Origin: Paenibacillus lutimineralis
GTDB lineage: Bacteria; Bacillota; Bacilli; Paenibacillales; Paenibacillaceae
Assembly (NCBI RefSeq): GCF_003991425.1
Contig: NZ_CP034346.1
Location: forward strand, 2,145,501 to 2,209,500
Length of the DNA stretch: 64,000 nucleotides
Direction of reading: 5' to 3'
In this document: positions 4,966 to 35,361 of the stretch, piece by piece
How positions within the stretch are numbered: position 1 is the first letter of the stretch
Layout of the letters: every line of letters begins with the position of its first letter
Translations under genes and position numbers: made by a program
Notes under the pieces: generated by a model
Database searches by the model: none
What the model was told of the DNA's origin: nothing
The model's input: the letters and a program-made list of their open reading frames with translations, nothing else

Positions 4966-5907
4966 ATGGCAAAACGTACTACAAAAAGCAAGTCGAAAGG
5001 CAAGTCCAAAAGTAGCACATCAAAAAATAGCATCATCGTAGTTCTTCTAGCTGTCTTTATCGGGTTTTATTTGCTGGAGGGCGGCTGGCAGGATTGGCTT
5101 GGTCCGACGGACTCGTCTTCTGTAACGACGCAAGCAGGGGAGAATGAAGGGCGTCTGCGGGTCATATTCCTAGATGTAGGGCAGGGAGCTTCGCAGCTCC
5201 TGATTAGTCCAACTGGCAAGACAATGCTGATTGATGCGGGGAATAATGACCGTGAACAGCAAATGGTTGATAGCCTACATGCTTATGGGATTGATCGTCT
5301 GGATATCGTGATCGGAACGCATCCGGATGCGGATCATATTGGCGGCCTTGATCGAGTGATTGACAATTTCGAAGTTGGCGCCGTCTATATGCCGAAGATC
5401 CAGTCCAATACGAAAACCTATGAATCGCTTCTTAGATCGATCAAGAATAAGGGGCTGAAGGTGAAGACAGCCCAGGCTGGCGTTCGCCTCGACTGGGACG
5501 AAGAGGTAAGTAGCGAGATGGTGGCTCCTGTGACAATTAGTGATGATACGAACAACATGAGTGCAGTAGTTCGAATTACATATGGCAACAGCTCATACCT
5601 TCTTACTGGCGATGCTGAGCGAGAGAGTGAGCAGGCTATGCTGTCTTCCGGAAGAGAGCTACAGGCAGATGTAATGCTGGTTGGTCATCACGGTTCCAAG
5701 TCCTCGACGACACTGGCCTTCTTGAAACGGGTCAAGCCGAAGTATGCCGTAATCCAAGTAGGAGCGGACAACAGCTATGGCCATCCGAAGCAAGCGATAC
5801 TGGATCGTCTGGCGAAGCAGAAGGTAGAAGTATATCGCAACGATTTACAAGGGAATATCGAGATAGCCTCCGATGGAATGAAGTACTATATTACGGCGGA
5901 AAGGTGA
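4966..5907 (+). CDS. ComEC-like metallo-beta-lactamase-fold hydrolase, membrane-anchored
   Basis: 313 residues. A very basic Lys/Ser/Thr-rich N-terminus and one membrane segment (about residues 26-42) are followed by an extracytoplasmic MBL domain. Visible signatures are DVGQGASQLL, the metal motif THPDADHIGG, LLTGDAE and GHHGSKSSTT, all matching the C-terminal domain of the DNA-uptake protein ComEC. It lacks the competence channel, so it is the free-standing ComEC/Rec2-type hydrolase; its substrate (nucleic acid or nucleotide) is inferred only. The start at 4966 has an AAAGGAA site; the open ATG 45 bp upstream has none. It probably forms an operon with the DUF3006 gene 7 bp downstream. Confidence 0.82.
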   Translation: MAKRTTKSKSKGKSKSSTSKNSIIVVLLAVFIGFYLLEGGWQDWLGPTDSSSVTTQAGENEGRLRVIFLDVGQGASQLLISPTGKTMLIDAGNNDREQQMVDSLHAYGIDRLDIVIGTHPDADHIGGLDRVIDNFEVGAVYMPKIQSNTKTYESLLRSIKNKGLKVKTAQAGVRLDWDEEVSSEMVAPVTISDDTNNMSAVVRITYGNSSYLLTGDAERESEQAMLSSGRELQADVMLVGHHGSKSSTTLAFLKRVKPKYAVIQVGADNSYGHPKQAILDRLAKQKVEVYRNDLQGNIEIASDGMKYYITAER

Positions 5908-22055: not shown

Positions 22056-22732
22056 AAACAATTGCAATTATTGGTGCGGGACCTGGGTTGGGATTGTCAC
22101 TTGCAAAAAAGTTCGGTGAGAAAGGCTTTAAGGTAGCTGCCATTGCACGTAACCCTGAGAAATTGGGGATGATCATAAGTGAACTGAACAAGCTAAATAT
22201 TGAAGCGAAGTCTTATGTCGCAGATGTTACGGATTTGCCAGCTCTTAAGCAAGCTTTACAAGCTGCTAAACAAGATTTTGGCCATATTGATGTGCTCGAA
22301 TATAGCCCTTATTCAGGACCGGGTATTTTTAGACATGTGTTGGAAACAACACCTGAAAACGTCTTAGAACAAGTAAATGGCCATATACTGCCTGCCATTC
22401 TTGCTGTCAACGAAGTATTACCCGACATGATAAAGAATCGTTCGGGAGCAATTCTTTTTACAACAGGCTTATCTGCAATGTTTCCATTGCCGTCTATAGG
22501 AAATGTCGGAATCGTCATGTCCGGTCTTCGTAATTATGCAACGAACCTTTACAATGAATTAAAAGAAAAAGGAATTTATGTCGGACATCTATCAATCGGA
22601 ACATTCATACAGGCAGGGACTGCTGGAGATCCAGATCATATTGCAGAAGCTTGGTACGACTTATACGAAAAGAAGAATTGCTTTGAAGAAACATTCCCGC
22701 AAGGAATTGATCCAACTAGACTGTCAGATTAA
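22052..22732 (+). CDS. SDR-family NAD(P)-dependent oxidoreductase
   Basis: 226 residues. Cofactor motif GAGPGLGLSLAKKFGEKG at residues 8-25, then a typical VADVTD and a Ser-containing strand FTTGLSAM. The canonical YxxxK appears absent (VGIVMSGLRNYA at that place), as in atypical SDRs. Its start overlaps the stop of the preceding SDR (ATGA), so the pair is an operon under the TetR-type regulator. Substrate unknown. Confidence 0.78.
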   Translation: MKTIAIIGAGPGLGLSLAKKFGEKGFKVAAIARNPEKLGMIISELNKLNIEAKSYVADVTDLPALKQALQAAKQDFGHIDVLEYSPYSGPGIFRHVLETTPENVLEQVNGHILPAILAVNEVLPDMIKNRSGAILFTTGLSAMFPLPSIGNVGIVMSGLRNYATNLYNELKEKGIYVGHLSIGTFIQAGTAGDPDHIAEAWYDLYEKKNCFEETFPQGIDPTRLSD

Positions 22733-22794
22733 GTAGGGACTTAGCCCCCATTCAGACCCCAATACCTATAAATAGATAAAATCCGAAAGAAAAC

Positions 22795-22835: not shown

Positions 22836-22878
22836 ATGATCTGTAGTGGGCTCGAACCACTGACCCCTACCCTGTCAA
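22836..22878. repeat. attL (43-bp core repeat)
   Basis: Identical over 43 bp to 35264-35306. It contains the 3' 42 nt of tRNA-Val (anticodon region to discriminator base) without the 5' half. Confidence 0.92.
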
Positions 22879-22991
22879 AGTAACAAGGTACTTATTAAGA
22901 ATTATCAACGTTTGCTGTATACCGCAGTATATCAAGGTTTTTTAAAATATCGTTATTATGGTTTACCATGTTTTTATATGATTTTGCGGCA

Positions 22992-23015
22992 TTTTTTGCG
23001 TCAATTTTGCGTCAA
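22992..23015. repeat. Integrase arm-type repeat, left
   Basis: A 24-bp sequence containing two GCGTCAA units 11 bp apart, repeated in the same orientation at 35169-35192. A degenerate third unit (GCGGCA) precedes it. Located at the 3' edge of int, as expected for arm sites. Confidence 0.75.
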
Positions 23016-23018
23016 TAA

Positions 23019-24326
23019 TTATTCTGTAGTATCGGGAGATGGTTCAGGAGAAACAATGTTTTTACGTGAAAATTTCTCGAATTTCGCTGTAGTCTTTTTT
23101 CTTACTTTCTTTGTGACATGGACATAAATATCTGAAGTGGTTGATAACCTAGAATGCCCAAGTCTTTTTTGTATGGCAATTAAAAGGGGATCTATCATTG
23201 ATTCGTCTTCATCTTCAATAAGAAGAGTCCCCATACTGTGCCTAAGTCCATGGAACTTTATGTATCGTAAATTGTGACGTTTACAAAAACGCTCCCACCA
23301 ACGGGAAGGATGCTTATAATAATAGGCTTCTCCCTTTCCATTGTGGAAGACAAATCTTCGGTCTTCTCCGGCCCATTTATCCCCTAGTAACTCCTTTTCT
23401 TCTTCCCATTCTTGAAGGTAGAGCTGCATTTCCTCCATATACCATTCTGGCATGTCTACAGATCGAATAGAGCTTAATGATTTAGGGTCTTTTTCAATAG
23501 CCTTCCCTTTTTTAGTTAAAGGGATATTATTTTCAATCGAAAAGCTATTTTCTTCAAAAGATACTTGTGGCCATTCTAATGCAACAAGTTCACCCCTTCG
23601 AAAACCTCCAAGCATAGATCCAAGAATAAACAAGCGCCACTTAAGTGACTCACTATAGAGAGCTTCTACAACGTCTTGCGCTTCCTTTTCATTATAGTAC
23701 TGCGGATTGTTCTTCTGCTCAAGTTGTTTTTGTTTTCTAATCTCAATAGGAGCTGTAGGTTTTTTTATCCCCTCCATAGGATTGGAAAGGATCATTTTCC
23801 AGTCTGTAGCTCTTGAGAATATATTTTTAAGAACGCGATAGATGTATCCAATAGTTTCAAAGTCTAAAGCAGATACTTCAACCGGTGACTCTTCATTTTC
23901 ATTATTATGTTTAGGCTTGTTTAGTCGTGCTTCAGGACTTTCTAATTGTTTTAGAAAATCTAGGATATGTCCAGGCTTTATTTGATCGAGTTGCATATAA
24001 CCGAAGGCTGGAATTAATCTGGAATTTATATGAGCTTCATATGTCTCTAAAGTTGTCGGAGAAAGTTTGGAAATAGCATAATGTGTTTTCCACATTGGAA
24101 TAAACTCTTCAAATGTCTTTTTGCTCGGCTTAATATAATTACCGCTTTTCACTTCTTCTTTAAACTTTGCGTATTCATATTCAAGATACTCTTGTAACTT
24201 TTTTGGACTCATTTTCTCGGTAACTTCTATAGTTGTAGTCTCTCGTCCATACTTATTATTCGGCCCTTTTCCAGTACTTACAGTAAATTCATACGAGTTT
24301 TTTCCACGCTGTCTTATATTAGCCAT
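23019..24326 (-). CDS. Tyrosine recombinase (phage-type integrase)
   Basis: 435 residues. Order: AP2-like/arm-binding N-terminus (ANIRQRGKNSYEFTVSTGKG), SAM-like core-binding domain (FEEFIPMWKTHYAISKLSPT), and catalytic domain with Arg in GGFRRGEL, HGLRHSMG (His-x2-Arg), GHSRLSTT and the nucleophile Tyr in SDIYVHVT. It catalyses integration and excision at tRNA-Val. AAAGGAG 8 nt before ATG 24326 sets the start. It reads toward attL, the standard layout. Confidence 0.93.
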   Translation of the reverse strand: MANIRQRGKNSYEFTVSTGKGPNNKYGRETTTIEVTEKMSPKKLQEYLEYEYAKFKEEVKSGNYIKPSKKTFEEFIPMWKTHYAISKLSPTTLETYEAHINSRLIPAFGYMQLDQIKPGHILDFLKQLESPEARLNKPKHNNENEESPVEVSALDFETIGYIYRVLKNIFSRATDWKMILSNPMEGIKKPTAPIEIRKQKQLEQKNNPQYYNEKEAQDVVEALYSESLKWRLFILGSMLGGFRRGELVALEWPQVSFEENSFSIENNIPLTKKGKAIEKDPKSLSSIRSVDMPEWYMEEMQLYLQEWEEEKELLGDKWAGEDRRFVFHNGKGEAYYYKHPSRWWERFCKRHNLRYIKFHGLRHSMGTLLIEDEDESMIDPLLIAIQKRLGHSRLSTTSDIYVHVTKKVRKKTTAKFEKFSRKNIVSPEPSPDTTE

Positions 24327-24380
24327 TTCATTCACTCCTTTACTTTGTACTATGTATACGCAACAAACGAATTTACGAAA

Positions 24381-24719
24381 TTATTTTGTAATACCCTCTT
24401 TTATTTTCCCCTCAATGTAACGGTCAAGATCGCATTTTTTTATGAATCTACGTTGACCCATTTTATAACTAGGAATTTCTTTGGATTTAGTCATTCTGAA
24501 AACTGTTGATTTAGATGTCTTTAGATACAAGACTGCTTGATCCACATTCATGATTTCATCGTATTGTTGATCTAATTCCATTGAATCAGCCTTTAAATCC
24601 CTAATAATTTCATTCTTAATAGATGCTCTTAACTCAGCCCTCAGTTCCCTTTTTACTTCCTCTTTTATGTTCTTTTTAATTTCTTCAATTAGTACATAAA
24701 TCAAGTCGATTGAACTCAT
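24381..24719 (-). CDS. Excisionase-like HTH protein with coiled-coil N-terminus
   Basis: 112 residues. The N-terminal ~55 residues form a highly charged coiled coil (EEIKKNIKEEVKRELRAELR). The rest is a MerR/Xis-type winged helix (MNVDQAVLYLKTSKSTVFRM then KEIPSYKMGQRRFIKKCDLD). Probably a recombination directionality factor working with the integrase immediately downstream (54 bp gap). GGAG upstream of the ATG. Confidence 0.72.
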   Translation of the reverse strand: MSSIDLIYVLIEEIKKNIKEEVKRELRAELRASIKNEIIRDLKADSMELDQQYDEIMNVDQAVLYLKTSKSTVFRMTKSKEIPSYKMGQRRFIKKCDLDRYIEGKIKEGITK

Positions 24720-24746: not shown

Positions 24747-24863
24747 TTATTTATATACCTCTGAAAAAGGGGATAAAGGGGAATTATCAAGTAATCCCTT
24801 GATACATAAGGCTTCTTAGGCGTTTCTTTTTCCTAAACTTAATCTGATTAAGTAGGGGATTAA
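24747..24863. repeat. 117-bp perfect inverted repeat, left arm
   Basis: The exact reverse complement of 28769-28885, base for base over 117 bp; homology stops abruptly at both edges. It contains a near-palindrome (ACTTAATC-T-GATTAAGT) and a small CCTT...AAGG hairpin. Lies between the HTH gene and the repressor stop codon (4 bp away). Confidence 0.95.
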
Positions 24864-24866
24864 ACA

Positions 24867-25487
24867 CTAAGATTGTTCTAAAAATTCGTCTATTTCTCCA
24901 TCCTGAGAAATAATAAAATCCCTTATTTCTTTTTTTATAAAATCATCATCTAAAAATTTAATTCCAACAGAGTTTTTTTCTATCTTAATCGGAAGATCGT
25001 ATGAAACATTTATTTCGTTGAATGCGATGTCAATTATATCGTTGAATATTTCTTGTCTGAAAATTAAGGGGATCTTCTCGAGACGGGCTTTATCTTTAAC
25101 TGAGAAAACAACATGTGTGAATCTGGGATAAGTGTCTGTATTTAATAGTCCTTGCATTTTAATTACTGTTTCGTTATAGAAAATTTCTACTTCGTAAAAC
25201 CCTGAATATTTAACGATATTTAATAATCCATGAGAATCATAATGGATCTGTTTTTTATTAGGGTGTGTAAAAATACCATTAAACCCTACATCGGCATATG
25301 TAAATAATTCGCAATGGGTGATATCTAAAAATTTGCAAATCGAATCCATTGTGTCGAATTGAATTCCTTTCCCTGTATTGTTTTGGAGAGCACTTAGCGT
25401 ATTTCTAGAAAGCCCGGTTCTTTCAGACAATTCGGAAATGTTCATTCCTCTTTCAGCTAACAAAACTGCCAGGTTACACTTTATCAT
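24867..25487 (-). CDS. CI-like XRE-family repressor
   Basis: 206 residues. N-terminal HTH_3 (NLAVLLAERGMNISELSERT then GLSRNTLSALQN) and a long C-terminal region without a LexA-type Ser-Lys peptidase motif that I can see, so induction may be by an antirepressor rather than RecA. Its stop is 4 bp from the left inverted repeat. Divergent from the rightward operon across repeated operator-like boxes, as in phage and satellite lysogeny switches. Confidence 0.8.
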   Translation of the reverse strand: MIKCNLAVLLAERGMNISELSERTGLSRNTLSALQNNTGKGIQFDTMDSICKFLDITHCELFTYADVGFNGIFTHPNKKQIHYDSHGLLNIVKYSGFYEVEIFYNETVIKMQGLLNTDTYPRFTHVVFSVKDKARLEKIPLIFRQEIFNDIIDIAFNEINVSYDLPIKIEKNSVGIKFLDDDFIKKEIRDFIISQDGEIDEFLEQS

Positions 25488-25522
25488 ATTTTATCACCCA
25501 TTCACTCTATTTTGCTTTAAAG

Positions 25523-25623
25523 TATATACAATTTGCTCAATATATACAACATATTATCTTGACACATTATTTTCCTTCTGGTATCTTATAGATATCAAAA
25601 TGATCAGATGTCTGAGCAAATTG
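25523..25623. promoter_or_regulatory. Divergent lysogeny-switch control region
   Basis: Two direct TATATACAA boxes (about 25524 and 25541) and an inverted pair CAATTTGCTCA (about 25530) / TGAGCAAATTG (about 25613) are candidate operators. A rightward promoter TTGACA (25559-25564), 17 bp, TATCTT (25582-25587) lies between them. Confidence 0.65.
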
Positions 25624-25661
25624 ATAAGAGTATTTATCTTATTTGGAAGGGCGGTTAATCA

Positions 25662-26066
25662 ATGGGAATCGAAAAAATGACTTATGCGGAGTACCTACAG
25701 GAGAATTTGGGTGTATTACCAATTCGCGAATGCCTGGATGTACTGGACAAGGCCGAACAAGGGAAATTGACAGACTTTGATGTAGAACAGGAGCTTACAC
25801 CAGTTGTGGGAACAATTCTTTCAAACCTATTCAATCATGACATGGAAACGTTTGATAATGTTCTTGGAAAAATAAAAAACGCAGCCAAGGCGATCCGGGA
25901 ACGGGAAGAAGACATTAAGTTCAGATTAGATCCGTGCAATGACAGTGTGGAGTTAGTTCTTGAATTTGATACGATCTTAAATCATATCAGAGACGGATAT
26001 GGTCTAAAGGATCATTGGTTAGATGAAGACGGCGAATGGATCGTTATATTAGGCAAGTCGGAATAA
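25662..26066 (+). CDS. Element protein of unknown function, first gene of rightward operon
   Basis: 134 residues, acidic, largely helical (TYAEYLQENLGVLPIRECLD, then ETFDNVLGKIKNAAKAIRE). No membrane segment or known motif recognised. Its position directly downstream of the switch promoter makes it an early gene. GGAAGG-type site before the ATG. Confidence 0.6.
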   Translation: MGIEKMTYAEYLQENLGVLPIRECLDVLDKAEQGKLTDFDVEQELTPVVGTILSNLFNHDMETFDNVLGKIKNAAKAIREREEDIKFRLDPCNDSVELVLEFDTILNHIRDGYGLKDHWLDEDGEWIVILGKSE

Positions 26067-26087
26067 CGAATAACGGGGGCGATTCAC

Positions 26088-26333
26088 ATGTATCAAATCA
26101 CATTGAAAATGGCTCGTTTAAATCGCGGATTATCTTTGAAGGAAGCTGCTGAACTTGGTGGCATTACTCCGAAGACTTTGAAAAAGTACGAGAAGGACAG
26201 CGGAAAGGCAAAATTTGATCCATTCATTAGACTCTTAAAAGCTTATGGCGTGTCCATGGATCATATCGCTATCGGTAAAGAGGACGAAATCATTGGGAAT
26301 CTATTAAAAACCATTAACAAGGTGGTGGCGTAA
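26088..26333 (+). CDS. Small XRE-family HTH protein (Cro-like)
   Basis: 81 residues. HTH: KMARLNRGLSLKEAAELGGI then TPKTLKKYEKDSG, with a short C-terminal tail. Likely the Cro/antirepressor-like partner of the divergent repressor. The next gene starts at the base after its stop codon. Confidence 0.75.
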   Translation: MYQITLKMARLNRGLSLKEAAELGGITPKTLKKYEKDSGKAKFDPFIRLLKAYGVSMDHIAIGKEDEIIGNLLKTINKVVA

Positions 26334-26519
26334 ATGCAACGTATCACATTAACAGTAAGTGAAGCTGCTCAACTAATCGGCGTATCGCAAACTACGGTTT
26401 ATGCAATGGCTAGGGAGGGACAGATTCCACATGCTCGAGTACGGAACCGGATCTTGTTTCACCGAGATGTTATTGAAGCTTGGCTACGTGGTGAACATTT
26501 ACAAGCGAAACAGGCATAG
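26334..26519 (+). CDS. Excisionase-family (HTH_17) DNA-binding protein
   Basis: 61 residues, essentially one HTH_17 domain: LTVSEAAQLIGVSQTTVYAM then REGQIPHARVRNRILFHRD. It binds DNA as an Xis or AlpA-type regulator. Immediately adjacent to the XRE gene and 11 bp from the primase start. Confidence 0.78.
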   Translation: MQRITLTVSEAAQLIGVSQTTVYAMAREGQIPHARVRNRILFHRDVIEAWLRGEHLQAKQA

Positions 26520-26530
26520 GTGGTGGTTAA

Positions 26531-28762
26531 GTGCTAGTAAATAACATACCAGTTGAGCTCAAGCAACGTAAACAATGGGTATTGTGGAAACTTGAACAGC
26601 GCAGAGAAGGTGATAAAGCGACTAAAGTTCCATACAACTTAGATGGTGAACGAGCTTCTACCACTAATCCAGAACATTGGTCAACATTTGAAGAAGCCAT
26701 GGAAGCCTATAAGCAAAAGTCGGAGGTTATGTCTGGAATCGGCTACGTATTCGCAGCTAACGATCCATTCACTGGCATTGATATTGACCATTGTGTTGTT
26801 AAGGGAAAAATAAAAGAAGATGTAAAGGAAATCATTCTTAATTTTAATAGCTATACTGAACGGAGCCAGAGCAAGAATGGTATTCACGTAATTATCAAAG
26901 GAAGAGTACCAGGGGAAAGAAATCGAACGGGGATATTTGAAATGTACGATCAGGAGCGTTTCTTTGTTGTTACTGGTGATCATGTGAAAGGTTCACCGTT
27001 AACAATAGAAGAACGTCAACAGGAATTAAACATGTTGTATGATCGTTTATTCCCTAAACAAAATGACCTAATTAAGAATAATTCAGAATTACCAGTTCAA
27101 GATGATGAAGTCATTATAGAGCTTGCTAGGAAGGCAAAAAACGGTGATAGATTTGAAAGGTTATATTCTGGCAAGTGGAGTTCTTACAACAGTCAGAGCG
27201 AAGCAGAACAAGCCTTATGTAACATGCTTGCCTTCTACACAAAAAATCCTGAACAAATTGACCGTTTGTTCAGGAACAGCGGTTTGATGCGTGACAAATG
27301 GGAACGCGAAGACTACTGTCAACGAACGATAAGTAAAGCGTTAGAGGGTGTTGTAGTGGCTTACAAACAACCCATTAATAAAACTCAATTTAATAACAAT
27401 ATATCACAGCGAAATGAGTTTGACGAGTCCGATTTTGATTTTATTTTTGATCCTAAACCGGAATTTGATGGAAAGTTAGGTGAACCAGCTTTACATGGAT
27501 TAGCTGGCGATATTGTAAGGTTCATTGATCCGCATACTGAAGCTGATCCGGCTGCAGTACTTATCAATTTCATAACAATGTTCGGAAACATGGTTGGTGA
27601 TGGGCCACACTTTGTTGTATCAGGCGGTAAACATCGTATGAGACTGTTTGCTGTGCTGGTTGGAGCAACCTTTCGAGGGAAGAAGGGAACGTCACTTGAT
27701 CCAGTTCTAAAGCTCATGAATGCCGCTGATGTAGAGTTCAATACCCGTAAGAAGTCAGGATTATCAAGCGGAGAAGGACTTATATATTCTGTTAGGGATC
27801 AAGTAATTGAATCAAGGCCAGTTGTAGAGGGCAAAGGCAAGGATAAAAAGTCAACAGGTGAATATGAGGAAGTTATCACAGATTCAGGTGTTGAGGACAA
27901 GCGTTTGCTAGTCGTTGAAAGTGAGTTCGGTTCAGTCCTTAACGTATTGCGCAGGGATGGTAATACATTGTCAGCAATAATCCGTAACGCTTGGGATGGC
28001 AACGGTGAGATAAGGACATTAACCAAGAACCCAATGCAAGCTTCAAACTCTCATATATCCATTCTAGGGCATATCACACCTGAGGAGCTTAGGAAGCTAT
28101 TGACTGGGAATGAGATTCATAACGGGTTTGTGAACCGTTTCCTGTGGCTGTATGTTCAGCAATCAAAATCATTACCAAGCGGTGGCGAGTTCCACAAGTT
28201 AGACGTTGGGCCGATCGTTGACAGAATAAAGGAAGCTTGTGATTATGCCATGAATGAAATGCCGGTTGATAATAATGGCGATCCACTGCCCATGGAACGT
28301 AATGAAGCAGCAAATAAGCTATGGGAACGTATCTATGAGCCTCTACAACGTGATGCATCTGGTATTATTGGAGCTTCAACAAGTCGGGTTATTCCTTACG
28401 TAATGCGCTTGGCTTGCATATACGCCTTGCTGGACATGTCAAACGTTGTCCGAGTGGAGCATCTAAAGGCTGCATTAGCTGTATGGGATTACTGTTATAA
28501 ATCGGTGGCGTTCATCTTTGGAGAACAGGAACTTACTAATGATCCTATCATCAGCAAGATATTGAGTAGGCTTAAGGAGAAGTCAGAAGGGCTTACTTTG
28601 ACTGATATTAACGATCTATTCAAAGGGACTGTTAAAAGTGACGAGCTTCAAGGGGCTATAAAGAAGATGCAAGATAACGGCCTTATTACTGTGAAGACCA
28701 TACCAGGCAGAGGAAGACCTAAGAGATTGATCGAGCTTAGTCAATCTAGTGAAATAGCGTGA
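26531..28762 (+). CDS. Primase-polymerase / DUF3987 replication protein
   Basis: 743 residues, GTG start. N-terminal primase-like domain (residues 1-170) with the acidic motif GIDIDH (Asp84, Asp86), SKNGIHVIIKG and FFVVTGDH. Then DUF3987 (about 300-680) with a divergent P-loop VGATFRGKKGTS, VESEFGSVL, RDGNTLSAIIRNAWDG and ISILGHITPEEL. The C-terminus is a small winged-helix segment. Such fusions initiate replication of satellites and small phages. Its stop lies 6 bp from the right inverted repeat. Confidence 0.82.
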   Translation: MLVNNIPVELKQRKQWVLWKLEQRREGDKATKVPYNLDGERASTTNPEHWSTFEEAMEAYKQKSEVMSGIGYVFAANDPFTGIDIDHCVVKGKIKEDVKEIILNFNSYTERSQSKNGIHVIIKGRVPGERNRTGIFEMYDQERFFVVTGDHVKGSPLTIEERQQELNMLYDRLFPKQNDLIKNNSELPVQDDEVIIELARKAKNGDRFERLYSGKWSSYNSQSEAEQALCNMLAFYTKNPEQIDRLFRNSGLMRDKWEREDYCQRTISKALEGVVVAYKQPINKTQFNNNISQRNEFDESDFDFIFDPKPEFDGKLGEPALHGLAGDIVRFIDPHTEADPAAVLINFITMFGNMVGDGPHFVVSGGKHRMRLFAVLVGATFRGKKGTSLDPVLKLMNAADVEFNTRKKSGLSSGEGLIYSVRDQVIESRPVVEGKGKDKKSTGEYEEVITDSGVEDKRLLVVESEFGSVLNVLRRDGNTLSAIIRNAWDGNGEIRTLTKNPMQASNSHISILGHITPEELRKLLTGNEIHNGFVNRFLWLYVQQSKSLPSGGEFHKLDVGPIVDRIKEACDYAMNEMPVDNNGDPLPMERNEAANKLWERIYEPLQRDASGIIGASTSRVIPYVMRLACIYALLDMSNVVRVEHLKAALAVWDYCYKSVAFIFGEQELTNDPIISKILSRLKEKSEGLTLTDINDLFKGTVKSDELQGAIKKMQDNGLITVKTIPGRGRPKRLIELSQSSEIA

Positions 28763-28768
28763 TCTCAA

Positions 28769-28885
28769 TTAATCCCCTACTTAATCAGATTAAGTTTAGG
28801 AAAAAGAAACGCCTAAGAAGCCTTATGTATCAAGGGATTACTTGATAATTCCCCTTTATCCCCTTTTTCAGAGGTATATAAATAA
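28769..28885. repeat. 117-bp perfect inverted repeat, right arm
   Basis: Reverse complement of 24747-24863 without a mismatch. It lies between the primase stop and the next gene and contains the same hairpin potential. Twenty of its bases recur in the terminator at the right end of the element (near 35234-35253). Confidence 0.95.
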
Positions 28886-28908: not shown

Positions 28909-29205
28909 ATGCCAACAGCAAATGAAATAATTCGTTTAAACGAGATAGAGCAAATGGATAAAAGGGCTAAGAAGGCAGGATTCCTCCCTCTTATCTCCGG
29001 TGAAGCATATGAAGCACAGTACAACAGTAACAGCCATGTCTTCATCATGATGAATGGTAGTAAGTGGAGCGCATGGCGCGAAACTTGGCAACCAGGTAAG
29101 GAACGATCTATTTCACTTAAATCAATTGTGGACAATGTTCCCTTTGATATTGCAGTTCAGCAAGCAAATAAGTACATGGCATTCATCATAAAGAAAAGAG
29201 GTTAG
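28909..29205 (+). CDS. Element protein, unknown
   Basis: 98 residues (PTANEIIRLNEIEQMDKRAK then KAGFLPLISGEAYEAQYNSN). Mixed alpha/beta, no motif recognised. GAGAGGAAGG site upstream. Translationally linked to the next ORF (TAG/GTG share one base). Confidence 0.6.
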   Translation: MPTANEIIRLNEIEQMDKRAKKAGFLPLISGEAYEAQYNSNSHVFIMMNGSKWSAWRETWQPGKERSISLKSIVDNVPFDIAVQQANKYMAFIIKKRG

Positions 29206-31428: not shown

Positions 31429-32145
31429 ATGAATAAGTGGTTGTGTTATACCAGATCTATTGAATATGGTGGATCAATAATTAAAGCTACAGAAGATGGC
31501 GGGGCTTCTGTTCCTACTACGCTAAACGGAAATGGTTATAGTATTGATGGGAATGGTGCCATTGTGCAAAATGGTCATCTTGTTGCTGGTGGAATGATTT
31601 TGAGCGGTAATGTGGTTCGGGGCATGGCTACATCTGGTGGGGGAGGAACATACCCAACTTCTGAAGGGGGAAGCCATGATCACGGTGGAACCGCAGGAAG
31701 TCACAATCACGGAAATGAAGCCAACAAAAACTACGCTCCACCAATTACCCGGGATGGTCAGCATTTGCATTCAGTAACAATTCCACCACATGAACATGAT
31801 GTTTTATCACATTCTCATTTCATTGATCATACTCATGAAGTTGTAATTCCTAAACATTCACACCTAGTAAATATTCCTCCCCATACACACGATATGGTGT
31901 TTGGTATTTTCAAAGGACCAACGCCTTCTAAAGTTGAGGTTAGAGTAGATGGAAATCTCATTCCTGGCCTCACTACGAGCGTAGATGGATTTGATATTAT
32001 TCCGTATTTGTCTAAGGATGATAGCGGGAAAGTGCAGCGCGGGTGGCATGAAATAGAGATAACACCAGTTAATTCACTGGGGCGCATTGTTGCATCTGTT
32101 TTTAGTCAAGTTTTTGCTACTAGCCGTGGAGGAGGTAACTATTAA
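31429..32145 (+). CDS. His-rich phage tail-fibre/tip-like protein
   Basis: 238 residues. The N-terminal half is Gly-rich and beta-like. Residues ~80-160 carry eight H-x-H pairs (SHDHGG, SHNHGN, PPHEHD, LSHSHF, DHTHEV, PKHSHL, PPHTHD). Then comes FGIFKGPTPSKVEVRVDGN and a beta C-terminus ending IEITPVNSLGRIVASVF. Such H-x-H triple-helical stalks binding metal, with GI(F/Y)xGxTP segments, occur at the C-termini of phage tail proteins. It lacks the large N-terminal tail-attachment part. Overlaps the next start (TAATG). Confidence 0.65.
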   Translation: MNKWLCYTRSIEYGGSIIKATEDGGASVPTTLNGNGYSIDGNGAIVQNGHLVAGGMILSGNVVRGMATSGGGGTYPTSEGGSHDHGGTAGSHNHGNEANKNYAPPITRDGQHLHSVTIPPHEHDVLSHSHFIDHTHEVVIPKHSHLVNIPPHTHDMVFGIFKGPTPSKVEVRVDGNLIPGLTTSVDGFDIIPYLSKDDSGKVQRGWHEIEITPVNSLGRIVASVFSQVFATSRGGGNY

Positions 32146-32750
32146 TGACATTGGTAGCGGCATTTGCCTCCCCTAATTTTGCTGTAATGGTGGCTGATCG
32201 ACGGAGGTCACAGTTAGAAACTGGAGTACAGATTGATGATGTAAAAAAAATATACCAGGTAAACAACAATGTAATGGTGGGGTTCTCTGGAGTTTACTTA
32301 CCAGACGGATTAGGTAATTTCCGAGGAATGGCGGAAAAGATTATTAACGATTGCAGCTTTTTGATTCATGATGACATGTCTGTAGAGAGTATCATAAATG
32401 TTTTCAGAAGACATATTATAACTCTCCTTGATGATGGCATATCTAAGGATCAATTAGAAGTTACCTACCATATTGCCGGTCTTTTACAAGATGGACATTT
32501 TGGATTAGGTCGAATAAGCTGTTTTGAAGATTTTGAACCGGTTATCACAAAACCGCCTGAAGCAGGAATAACTTGGGGGTTAAGTAGGGCTGTTTATGCC
32601 CCTAGCATGTGGCTAGAATCCCGTATAGCATCTTTAGGAGAAATGACACTGGGGAACGTTCAGAAATTGGCTGTAGAGCTTGTAGAACACACAGCACAGC
32701 GTGATAGTTATATAAGTGATACTTACGATATGTTGACTCTTTCTTTTTAG
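32145..32750 (+). CDS. Proteasome/HslV-like Ntn hydrolase 1
   Basis: 201 residues. After removal of Met the first residue is Thr, and numbering from it puts Asp at 17 (VADRR) and Lys at 33 (DDVKKIYQV), exactly the proteasome/HslV catalytic positions. The strand order TLVAAFASPNFAVMVADRR ... VKKIYQVNNNVMVGFSG parallels the HslV N-terminus. A later WGLSRAVYA may be the oxyanion-side loop. No propeptide is needed because Met-Thr is a methionine-aminopeptidase substrate. No HslU-like ATPase is present. Substrate unknown. Confidence 0.6.
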   Translation: MTLVAAFASPNFAVMVADRRRSQLETGVQIDDVKKIYQVNNNVMVGFSGVYLPDGLGNFRGMAEKIINDCSFLIHDDMSVESIINVFRRHIITLLDDGISKDQLEVTYHIAGLLQDGHFGLGRISCFEDFEPVITKPPEAGITWGLSRAVYAPSMWLESRIASLGEMTLGNVQKLAVELVEHTAQRDSYISDTYDMLTLSF

Positions 32751-32776: not shown

Positions 32777-33874
32777 ATGAGTCTTTGTGTTTGTTTTCAA
32801 AATAACGATTGCTTAATGATTGCTGCTGATACAGCGGTTGTAAAACAAATTAACGGACGGATGTATAGATTGATAGAGCCATTTAGAAAATTGGTTAGAA
32901 TTGGAGATCTCTTAGTGTTTATGAGTGGTAGCCTTGGTGTGGCCAATATCACTATGGAAAGATTCCGAACAGCTAAAAATAAGACAATACAAGAGCTTCA
33001 AAAGGTGGTTATTGAAAGCTGCAATTATTTTTCGAAAATGCATCCTGATATAGTAAACGGTTTAGATCCAAAAACTAGAGATGTAGCGGTTCTAGCTGCT
33101 GAATACAAGGACGGAGCTGTTCAAGTTCATATCGTTCAACCGAGCGATAATTTTCAAATTCACACATACAAGGCATCGCCTACCGAAACAATACCTCATA
33201 CTGGAGGAGTTTATGCAGACGAAGCACAAGACTTAATAAGACCTATGTTGGATGCTGGAAATAAAACCGCAGGAGAAATGATAAGACATGTGTTTGATAA
33301 TCTATCTGGAGTAGAGATTGGTGGAAACTTGATTGTTGCGAAAATAGATCAAAACGGCATCTCCTTCGGCCCGGATCAACCGATACCGGAACATGTCCGT
33401 ATCCCTTATTATGAAGATTTGCTGAGTTCTGCCTTCCTAACTGGTTCGCTCATTCAGACATCAGCATCTGGGAATTATCCCCGTGCGGAAATGAGCAGTT
33501 CGGACAGAATGTTTAAGGTTGGTTCATCTTCCTCTAATTCAATCGAAATGAGGTCGCTAGGATATCCAAATTCAATTCCGGACTTATATTTCAAAACAGG
33601 ATCGTCCACGGCTTCTATAAGCCTTCCAAGTTCTTCATCCGGCTTGTATATGAGTGGCGACAGATTAACCGCTGAATTTTCAGAAATTAGACTAAGAGGA
33701 TACGGCAGCGTTTCTGTCTTAAGTTGGGATCAGCTAAAATCAGAAGGATCTGGAAGATCCCTACAGGGTGAATTGGATTATACGGCATATAACATGACAT
33801 TCGATCCTGGAACAAGGAACTTGAAACTGTGGAGTAGATCAGGACAGTTATTAGCACAAGTGAATATTCCGTAG
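32777..33874 (+). CDS. Proteasome-like Ntn hydrolase 2 fused to a beta-rich C-terminal domain
   Basis: 365 residues. Met-Ser start (SLCVCFQNNDCLMIAADTA) puts Ser at position 1 and Asp at 17; Lys lies in EPFRKLVRI; HTGGVYADEA resembles the GSGGPYA loop. The first ~210 residues are thus a second Ntn-hydrolase domain, paralogous to the preceding gene. Residues ~215-365 are Ser/Gly/Tyr-rich, beta-predicted and tail-fibre-like (SGNYPRAEMSSSDRMFKVGS). GGAGATG site upstream. The pairing with the fibre-like gene suggests a virion or surface role (inference). Confidence 0.55.
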   Translation: MSLCVCFQNNDCLMIAADTAVVKQINGRMYRLIEPFRKLVRIGDLLVFMSGSLGVANITMERFRTAKNKTIQELQKVVIESCNYFSKMHPDIVNGLDPKTRDVAVLAAEYKDGAVQVHIVQPSDNFQIHTYKASPTETIPHTGGVYADEAQDLIRPMLDAGNKTAGEMIRHVFDNLSGVEIGGNLIVAKIDQNGISFGPDQPIPEHVRIPYYEDLLSSAFLTGSLIQTSASGNYPRAEMSSSDRMFKVGSSSSNSIEMRSLGYPNSIPDLYFKTGSSTASISLPSSSSGLYMSGDRLTAEFSEIRLRGYGSVSVLSWDQLKSEGSGRSLQGELDYTAYNMTFDPGTRNLKLWSRSGQLLAQVNIP

Positions 33875-34538: not shown

Positions 34539-34640
34539 TTAGAATCAATGTCTCTGTAGGAGGTAGGGCCTGTGTTTCGTATAATATAAAGTTGAATTGC
34601 CAATAAAAATGAGTAAAACTTGTAAAATGGAGTGAGTGGA

Positions 34641-35012
34641 ATGGAAAGTATTCCGCATATCATGAGTCTAAAACAAACAGCTAAATTCTTGGGCATAAGT
34701 GAACCTACCTTAAAACGCCGAATAAATGCCAAGCAAATAAGAGCATATAAAGACGGAGGTTACTGGAAGATAAAAAGAGAATGGGTTGAGGAATATCAGA
34801 ACAATTTAATTAAAGAACAAGAGCCAATCCCCAAAATACATATCAACCAGTTCTCACAAGAAACACAGGTCTTCATACATCAACTTATTGCAAATGCGAT
34901 TAAAAGGGCCATAAAAAACGGGACTTATAAGGGGGATCAAACGGAAGGTGAAGATGGTGAGGAAATACCGGAAACAATTAAGAGTGGTTGCACATTACAT
35001 GAAGGACGGTGA
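34641..35012 (+). CDS. HTH_17 (excisionase/MerR-like) DNA-binding protein
   Basis: 123 residues. HTH: SLKQTAKFLGISEPTLKRRI then NAKQIRAYKDGGYWKIKREW, followed by an acidic C-terminal tail. GGAG 8 nt before the ATG at 34641. Probably a regulator or a second directionality factor at the right end of the element. Confidence 0.68.
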   Translation: MESIPHIMSLKQTAKFLGISEPTLKRRINAKQIRAYKDGGYWKIKREWVEEYQNNLIKEQEPIPKIHINQFSQETQVFIHQLIANAIKRAIKNGTYKGDQTEGEDGEEIPETIKSGCTLHEGR

Positions 35013-35112
35013 CAAGAGGGTGTTGATTGACCCATATAAAACCGATTTGCCCGATCGATGTAAACTAGCCATCACTGAAATAATAACCGGAAAGAAGTAT
35101 GAATTGATGTGA
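34954..35112 (+). CDS. Small basic protein overlapping the HTH gene
   Basis: 52 residues from ATG (or the next codon, GTG), overlapping the previous gene by 59 bp in another frame. It reads VRKYRKQLRVVAHYMKDGDK then RVLIDPYKTDLPDRCKLAIT. A GGAAGGTG site precedes it. No family recognised; the overlap lowers confidence. Confidence 0.42.
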   Translation: MVRKYRKQLRVVAHYMKDGDKRVLIDPYKTDLPDRCKLAITEIITGKKYELM

Positions 35113-35129
35113 GTTGTATTTGACATTTA

Positions 35130-35174
35130 AAGTCGGCACTTATGAATATTTATCATAAGCTATCGGCTTTTTTT
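35130..35174 (+). terminator. Terminator at the right end of the element
   Basis: AAGTCG...CTTATGA/TCATAAG...CGGCTT stem followed by T7, just before the right arm repeat. Confidence 0.72.
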
Positions 35175-35192
35175 GCGTCAATTTTGCGTCAA
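35169..35192. repeat. Integrase arm-type repeat, right
   Basis: 24 bp identical to 22992-23015, same orientation, 72 bp inside attR. Confidence 0.75.
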
Positions 35193-35222: not shown

Positions 35223-35258
35223 ATAAAAATAAAAGAAGCCTTATGTATCAAGGCTTCT
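35223..35258 (-). terminator. Element-supplied terminator for tRNA-Val
   Basis: AGAAGCCTT/AAGGCTTCT hairpin, followed leftward by TTTTATTTTTAT, immediately downstream of the tRNA-Val 3' end. It replaces the host terminator now stranded beyond attL. Confidence 0.8.
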
Positions 35259-35263
35259 CAGCA

Positions 35264-35306
35264 ATGATCTGTAGTGGGCTCGAACCACTGACCCCTACCC
35301 TGTCAA
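35264..35306. repeat. attR (43-bp core repeat)
   Basis: Identical to 22836-22878 and part of the intact tRNA-Val gene, so the tRNA is regenerated on this side. Confidence 0.92.
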
Positions 35307-35337
35307 GATAGTGCTCTCCCAGCTGAGCTAACAGATC
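35265..35337 (-). tRNA. tRNA-Val (GAC)
   Basis: 73-nt cloverleaf on the minus strand: acceptor GATCTGT/ACAGATC, anticodon loop TTGACAG with GAC. The CCA is not encoded. Its 3' 42 nt are also present at 22837-22878. Integration target of the element. Confidence 0.93.
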
Positions 35338-35361
35338 AGAATATAAGTGAAGACAAAATTC

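Follow-up and report, generated by a model that had tools for sequence, protein, structure and literature searches.

P4 needs two separated cis sites, ori and crr, both of which are bound by its alpha protein through a C-terminal winged helix. The origins of phage-inducible chromosomal islands (PICIs) and of the Staphylococcus aureus pathogenicity islands (SaPIs) are described, in the cited sections of two papers, as made of iterons that follow rep immediately on its 3' side, with the C-terminal domain of the Rep protein as the part that recognises them (PMC6092414, PMC7581432); for the SaPI Rep, recognition by this domain of the downstream iterons is reported in the section cited (PMC7581432). 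The passages of PMC4234260 drawn on here state that P4 alpha, which carries a Toprim-type primase, binds repeats at the P4 origin, and that ORF904 of pRN1 joins a primase of the archaeo-eukaryotic type (AEP), a helicase and a winged helix in one protein, with the origin directly downstream. For NrS-1, an 8-nt recognition sequence present in two copies, one per strand, in the middle of the genome is presented as possibly the origin in the part of PMC7102993 cited here. We analysed a 64,000-nt stretch of Paenibacillus lutimineralis (contig NZ_CP034346.1, positions 2,145,501 to 2,209,500; hereafter the window), in which the replication module of an integrated satellite-like element is bracketed by two copies of a perfect inverted repeat. 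We think it rather probable that these cis-acting units of about 115 bp are iteron-type origins, recognised by the winged helix of the element's primase and kept alike by gene conversion.

The two copies, units A and B (Table 1), are exact reverse complements over 117 of 117 nt, as a sequence-only reading of this DNA had reported, and are spaced by 3905 nt. From the base composition, the longest match expected by chance in a window of such size is about 16 nt. The 117-bp repeat occurs in these two copies only in the whole genome (one contig, 6,497,679 bases). The same reading was right in outline about the genes enclosed, which encode a C1-type helix-turn-helix (HTH) repressor, two small proteins with an HTH, a 134-aa protein that gave no Pfam match, and a primase in which PF22763 and DUF3987 were matched. 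It was also right about the 6 bp between the primase stop and the inner end of unit B, whereas the gap between unit A and the repressor gene is 3 bp and not 4 bp. Because the units stand directly behind the stop codons of the repressor and the primase, they might be taken for a transcription terminator or a structured RNA at the 3' end of either transcript, and a CCTT-N7-AAGG within the unit does resemble the terminator of tRNA-Val and others. However, neither unit has a terminator-like site, no Rfam family was matched, the consensus fold is weak (just −2.1 kcal/mol, 7 pairs) and the single-strand fold has z = −1.67. This explanation was rejected on the absence of an Rfam match and of terminator-like sites and on the weak consensus fold, and we hold it to be extremely unlikely. 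Twenty bases of host DNA just beyond the left att (22724-22743) are 85% like the repeat end, perhaps by chance.

The primase combines the PF22763 HBD domain (E = 3.6e-21) with an AEP PrimPol fold, the two features by which the NrS-1-type family is recognised, and it matched NrS-1 chains both by profile (E about 1e-40) and by structure; no Toprim (DnaG-type) primase domain is present in it. The two cis sites bound by alpha in P4 are much like two iteron units set apart from each other, whereas alpha, as far as the cited passages describe it, is a Toprim-type primase and the window protein an NrS-1-type AEP. The DNA-binding domain of alpha was not among the 50 chains listed, which excludes nothing. 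The domain set of pRN1 ORF904 is the same, again in one protein, and its origin, downstream of the gene, is placed like the candidate unit B; the pRN1 origin, however, is described in the passages cited as a stem-loop of about 100 nt without iterons, and the window unit has no significant hairpin (best stem 7 bp). NrS-1 itself shares the N-terminal PrimPol and HBD domains, but its site, in the part of the source cited, is 8 nt long and recognised as the template for primer synthesis, unlike the window units of about 115 bp.

PICIs are a close parallel in organisation: the element is integrated, has int at one end and a specific att site, and carries a divergent module in which the repressor is on the minus strand and the HTH genes and primase-helicase on the plus strand. 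It also has repeats directly 3' of the replication gene, and a primase with a putative DNA-binding C-terminal domain. The motif and the primase are not those of PICIs, however, and in the cited sections PICIs have one origin behind rep, whereas the window has a second, inverted copy, and relatives a third, which are homogenised. Checked against a PICI-type origin, in which two iteron sets flank an AT-rich region immediately 3' of rep, the unit is in the right place behind the primase, but its periodicity is unexceptional in the window. As a kind of system, a satellite whose iteron origin follows the primase gene is already known. In the open-licence papers searched, no description was found of inverted or multiplied units, of their homogenisation, or of a 9-bp signature behind DUF3987-type primase-helicases, although one may have been published elsewhere.

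We propose that the units would be cis-acting sites of the element, most likely an iteron-type replication origin, and that the primase-helicase encoded by the element would recognise them through its C-terminal winged helix. Unit B would be the origin, sited immediately after the primase gene as is usual in PICIs, and unit A a second inverted copy beyond the repressor, so placed that the two bracket the replication module. Unit A may also work as an origin, or it may bind the initiator for a different purpose, for instance to control xis-int. Relatives often hold a third copy, C, near the right end. Recombination between copies by gene conversion would keep them similar, and it would recently have made A and B identical in the window element.

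Relatives were taken from 394 genomes of the family (G-numbered loci), and one, L010, from genome contigs of Paenibacillus vini. Primase relatives at E ≤ 1e-100 were found in 5 of the 394 genomes, the window's own counted; the P. vini primase is 79% identical to that of the window, and the phage and plasmid records contained no primase relative at 60% identity or more. Three elements (G004, G010 and P. vini) have three units each, all pointing outward: A follows the repressor gene, B follows the primase gene, and C is close to the right end of the element. Unit C is missing from the window, according to a profile search at E ≤ 10. The unit profile matched 27 of the 394 genomes in all. Matches were strong (E < 1e-20) in four, namely the window's own, G004, G010 and G031, and weak (E 1e-5 to 0.01) in the remaining 23. 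At one of these 23 loci, L152, an element gene lies close by, namely an integrase, and the eight of the 23 that were inspected were mostly terminator-like or coding. A core-pattern scan of viral sequences for the unit gave a single match, which was unrelated.

Perfect identity is not confined to the window. In G010, units A and C are identical over 113 of 113 bp although they lie 14.6 kb apart, while the other G010 pairs (A-B and B-C) are at 72%; the copies are 65-81% identical in G004 and 61-69% in P. vini. Unit B of the window is 68% identical to the B units of three relatives, against 78-82% for its flanks, and 77-82% identical to the A units of relatives. The B site of the window thus appears to have been overwritten by an A-type unit, a pattern expected from gene conversion between copies. 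As A equals B in the window and A equals C in G010, gene conversion is the best explanation of the perfect arms. These two identities and the mosaic at unit B bear out the earlier proposal that perfect identity implies recent or maintained homology. Assembly error, which had been considered for one of the repeats, is unlikely, because two single-contig assemblies carry perfect pairs of different kinds.

The sequence-only reading had favoured an invertible phase switch, in which recombination between the arms would flip the module and exchange the flanking genes that lie downstream of the early operon with those downstream of the repressor. Long, perfect, inverted arms would suit such a switch, and the homogenisation shows that copies recombine. 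Yet the orientation of the module relative to int and the 98-aa open reading frame (ORF) is identical in 5 of 5 elements (window, G004, G010, P. vini and G189), and an inversion switch is therefore not supported. Since inversion by crossing over would alter orientation, unlike the pattern seen, gene conversion is favoured over it. Diverged arms in relatives had been named beforehand as evidence against a switch, and such arms are found in G004 and P. vini, with the identities given above, and also in G189; in G010, moreover, the perfect pair is a different one. Of the module genes scanned (Pfam and PHROG families), none was recognised as coding for an invertase-type protein, and the only recombinase recognised among the genes scanned is the tRNA-targeting integrase, which has its own 43-bp att sites. 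We consider the switch highly improbable.

Similarity between elements also shifts at the units: that between G031 and G004 (80%) stops at the inner end of unit A, and that between G010 and G004 falls at unit C, from 97% inside to 38% outside. This would fit units whose sole role is to offer shared homology, through which elements swap their modules (int, replication, right end), or else a small mobile repeat. Such an account leaves unexplained the directional motifs, the fixed place behind the primase, the G189 motif in both arms and the repeats downstream of viral primases (both described below), and no target-site duplication was seen in the sequence inspected, so that we find it very unlikely.

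G189, an element whose primase is at 67%, likewise has inverted units at the A and B places, but their sequence is different. Its two units are 86% identical over 130 alignment columns, with 72 bp identical, and they carry TTAATMCGTA-like motifs where the window units have TWATYCCCC. Along the primase, identity to the window protein over the PrimPol part (residues 1-280) is much the same in all relatives (60% in G004 and G010, 61% in P. vini, 59% in G189). Over the helicase part (318-664) it is 90% in G004 and G010, 91% in P. vini and 79% in G189, and over the winged helix (666-743) it is 95%, 90%, 92% and 45% in G004, G010, P. vini and G189, respectively. DNA similarity between the window and G189 ends inside the winged-helix code and returns at the 98-aa ORF, which indicates that the winged helix and unit B differ as a block. 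Mixed primases occur as well: P0006 and P0007 combine a winged helix like that of the window with a body resembling that of G189, and P0002 is mixed in the opposite sense. Two further loci, G361 and G483 (primases 60-61%), have, right after the primase stop, repeats of a third type, TTCGTAA. As only a few lineages supply these three motif types, the covariation of motif and winged helix is suggestive, not proven. Given where unit B lies, that it contains repeats, that the primase has a winged helix and that motif and winged helix change together in G189, we take a candidate origin as the best reading of unit B. Paired replication origins, which had been listed before as one alternative to the switch, become on these comparisons the best-supported explanation, as candidate origins.

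Repeats behind primase genes were also analysed in viral contigs, where 30 loci have relatives of the helicase/C-terminal half; 28 of these were eligible, with 150 bp available behind the stop (L108 and L134 were dropped). Another 60 loci matched N-terminal patterns, of which 55 were eligible (L022, L033, L046, L051 and L060, lacking the 150 bp or a stop, were dropped). Control windows came from the same loci, behind any stop-to-stop frame of at least 120 codons, whether a real gene or not. A score of at least 14 for a period of 9 bp (lag-9 score) was reached by 11 of the 28 C-terminal-half loci and by 10 of 1098 control windows (p = 7e-7), or by 11 of 27 after removal of near-duplicates (p = 2e-6). 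Among the 17 lags tested in the viral relatives, only 9 and its double, 18, were raised. The N-terminal-pattern loci reached the score once in 55, so the repeats go with the C-terminal half. Four loci added later behaved alike, with lag-9 scores of 17 (L120), 17 (L123), 13 (L124) and 7 (L133). An earlier repeat-count statistic (30 loci, pooled controls) was significant, but had been picked after inspecting the sequences, and prompted the 9-bp period; as this period was first spotted by eye, the lag test is exploratory. A second array-like stretch was found in 8 of 24 loci, and in 7 of them it adjoins the array or sits in the 3' half of the gene, inverted. The viral contig L114 has two iteron-hairpin-inverted-iteron units, at 1252-1351 and 5090-5165, that bracket the primase, one directly behind it and the other 1.3 kb upstream. 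A conserved hairpin was tried as a common feature and rejected, as p < 0.05 was obtained in only 4 of 31 sequences (G189, L114, L116 and L117) and not in the window.

Several observations weigh against the units being origins bound by the primase. The lag-9 score of the window is an unexceptional 11, with a higher value, 12, found at another place in the element; its best hairpin stem is not significant (p = 0.14); and 8 of the 14 TWWTYCCC sites of the element fall outside the units. Among the 6 non-independent Paenibacillaceae loci, lag 9 is not the only one raised, as lags 8, 10 and 11 are too. When repeat content was compared with winged-helix similarity by a partial Mantel test, r was 0.34, and it was 0.33 for a control window; with a control as strong as the test, this covariation test shows nothing and was discarded. 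G483 has no inverted copy at an A site. Finally, G031 has units A and C, while its module contains a DnaB-type helicase and a Phg_2220_C protein and gave no match to a window-type primase or winged helix. Unit A of G031 is degenerate, with parts of the motif lost, and its unit C, 92% like that of P. vini, is no better kept than the flank; these units may be relics, or be bound by something else.

G031 would be accounted for if each unit were the operator or promoter of an outward operon (xis-int at A, the 98-aa ORF at B, the right-end genes at C) under one element regulator. The outer ends of units A and B are indeed 27 bp upstream of the xis-like gene and 23 bp upstream of the 98-aa ORF, both transcribed outward, and the outer part of the unit, CCCCTTTATCCCCTTTTTC, is its best-conserved stretch. 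Beyond the conserved core, however, the sequence differs between copies, and a promoter scan placed no site in either unit (14 in the region, against 15.7 expected by chance). In G189, where the units have a different motif, the small HTH_17 protein encoded next to the primase has hardly changed, and the viral C-terminal-half relatives have repeats at the same place with no shared regulator identified. We regard regulation as the sole role of the units as unlikely, and retain it mainly because G031 has units without a window-type primase. If the units were only regulatory, the finding would reduce to an ordinary duplicated operator.

A wider version of the origin proposal is more doubtful, and we advance it as a tentative possibility. 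One satellite family would have two or three inverted, homogenised origins around a single primase-helicase gene, with one initiator serving several sites that face each other; the winged helix would form, with its unit, an exchangeable specificity cassette, copies would be rewritten by recombination between origins during replication, and a 9-bp iteron array immediately after the gene would mark the origin of DUF3987-type primase-helicases in general. If this is true, repeats with a 9-bp period directly behind the stop would allow origins to be predicted in many phages and satellites that have NrS-1/DUF3987-type replicases and are still uncharacterised, and the elements would provide a natural series of matched winged-helix/DNA-motif pairs for initiator specificity. 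Multiple inverted origins in an element of some 12 kb would also raise the question of why they are needed, be it for replication rate, recombination-dependent replication or regulation of the outward genes.

The element itself is about 12.4 kb long, is integrated in tRNA-Val and is bounded by a 43-bp duplication of the 3' end of this gene. Its features are listed in Table 1.

Table 1. Units, genes and borders of the integrated element, in window coordinates.
Feature	Positions	Strand	Remarks
att core, left end (43 bp of tRNA-Val 3' end)	22836-22878		exact 43-bp match with 35264-35306
tyrosine integrase	23019-24335	−	PF00589, PF14659
excisionase-like HTH_17 protein	24381-24719	−	PF12728; PHROG excisionase/HTH families
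unit A, identical to unit B; candidate origin unit	24747-24863	− (read outward)	TWWTYCCC motifs at 24769, 24779, 24855
C1-type repressor	24867-25487	−	HTH_26, HTH_3; PHROG transcriptional regulators
134-aa protein	25662-26066	+	kept in G004, G010 and P. vini (tblastn identity 69-80%); no Pfam or PHROG match
small HTH_3 protein	26088-26333	+	domain match
small HTH_17 protein, directly upstream of primase	26334-26519	+	nearly unchanged among elements with different units
NrS-1-type primase-polymerase/AAA+ helicase, 743 aa	26531-28762	+	PF22763, DUF3987
primase C-terminal winged-helix domain, residues 672-736	28544-28738	+	
unit B, candidate origin	28769-28885	+ (outward)	motif copies TTAATCCCC 28769-28777, TAATTCCCC 28846-28854, TTTATCCCC 28855-28863
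98-aa protein, first gene outside unit B	28909-29205	+	phrog_20734; 60-91% identity in 4 relatives
right-end genes (HTH_17 protein, 54-aa ORF)	34632-35112	+	one or both have relatives beyond unit C in G004, G031 and P. vini
att core, right end, within intact tRNA-Val (35264-35338)	35264-35306		43-bp match

Just within both ends of the element, at 22981-23015 and 35172-35192, are TTTTGCGTCAA direct repeats, which are probably arm-type integrase sites. Behind tRNA-Val, the element has brought a terminator-like hairpin (35235-35257) that has 18 identical bases in common with the inverted repeats; a single further genome match to it was found at up to 2 mismatches. In the G010 element (L087/L008), about 2.4 kb of DNA that G004 does not have splits the integrase gene.

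No small terminase (TerS) was found among the window proteins scanned, a set that includes minor-head and prohead-protease-like proteins. The P. vini element encodes, at L010:14581-17256, a TerS and a complete tape-measure-type protein, an unusual cargo for an element of such size. In the window, the cargo gene at 32145-32750 codes for a protein with a proteasome/HslV-type peptidase domain, and the product of its neighbour (32777-33874) has a weak match to an HslV PHROG.

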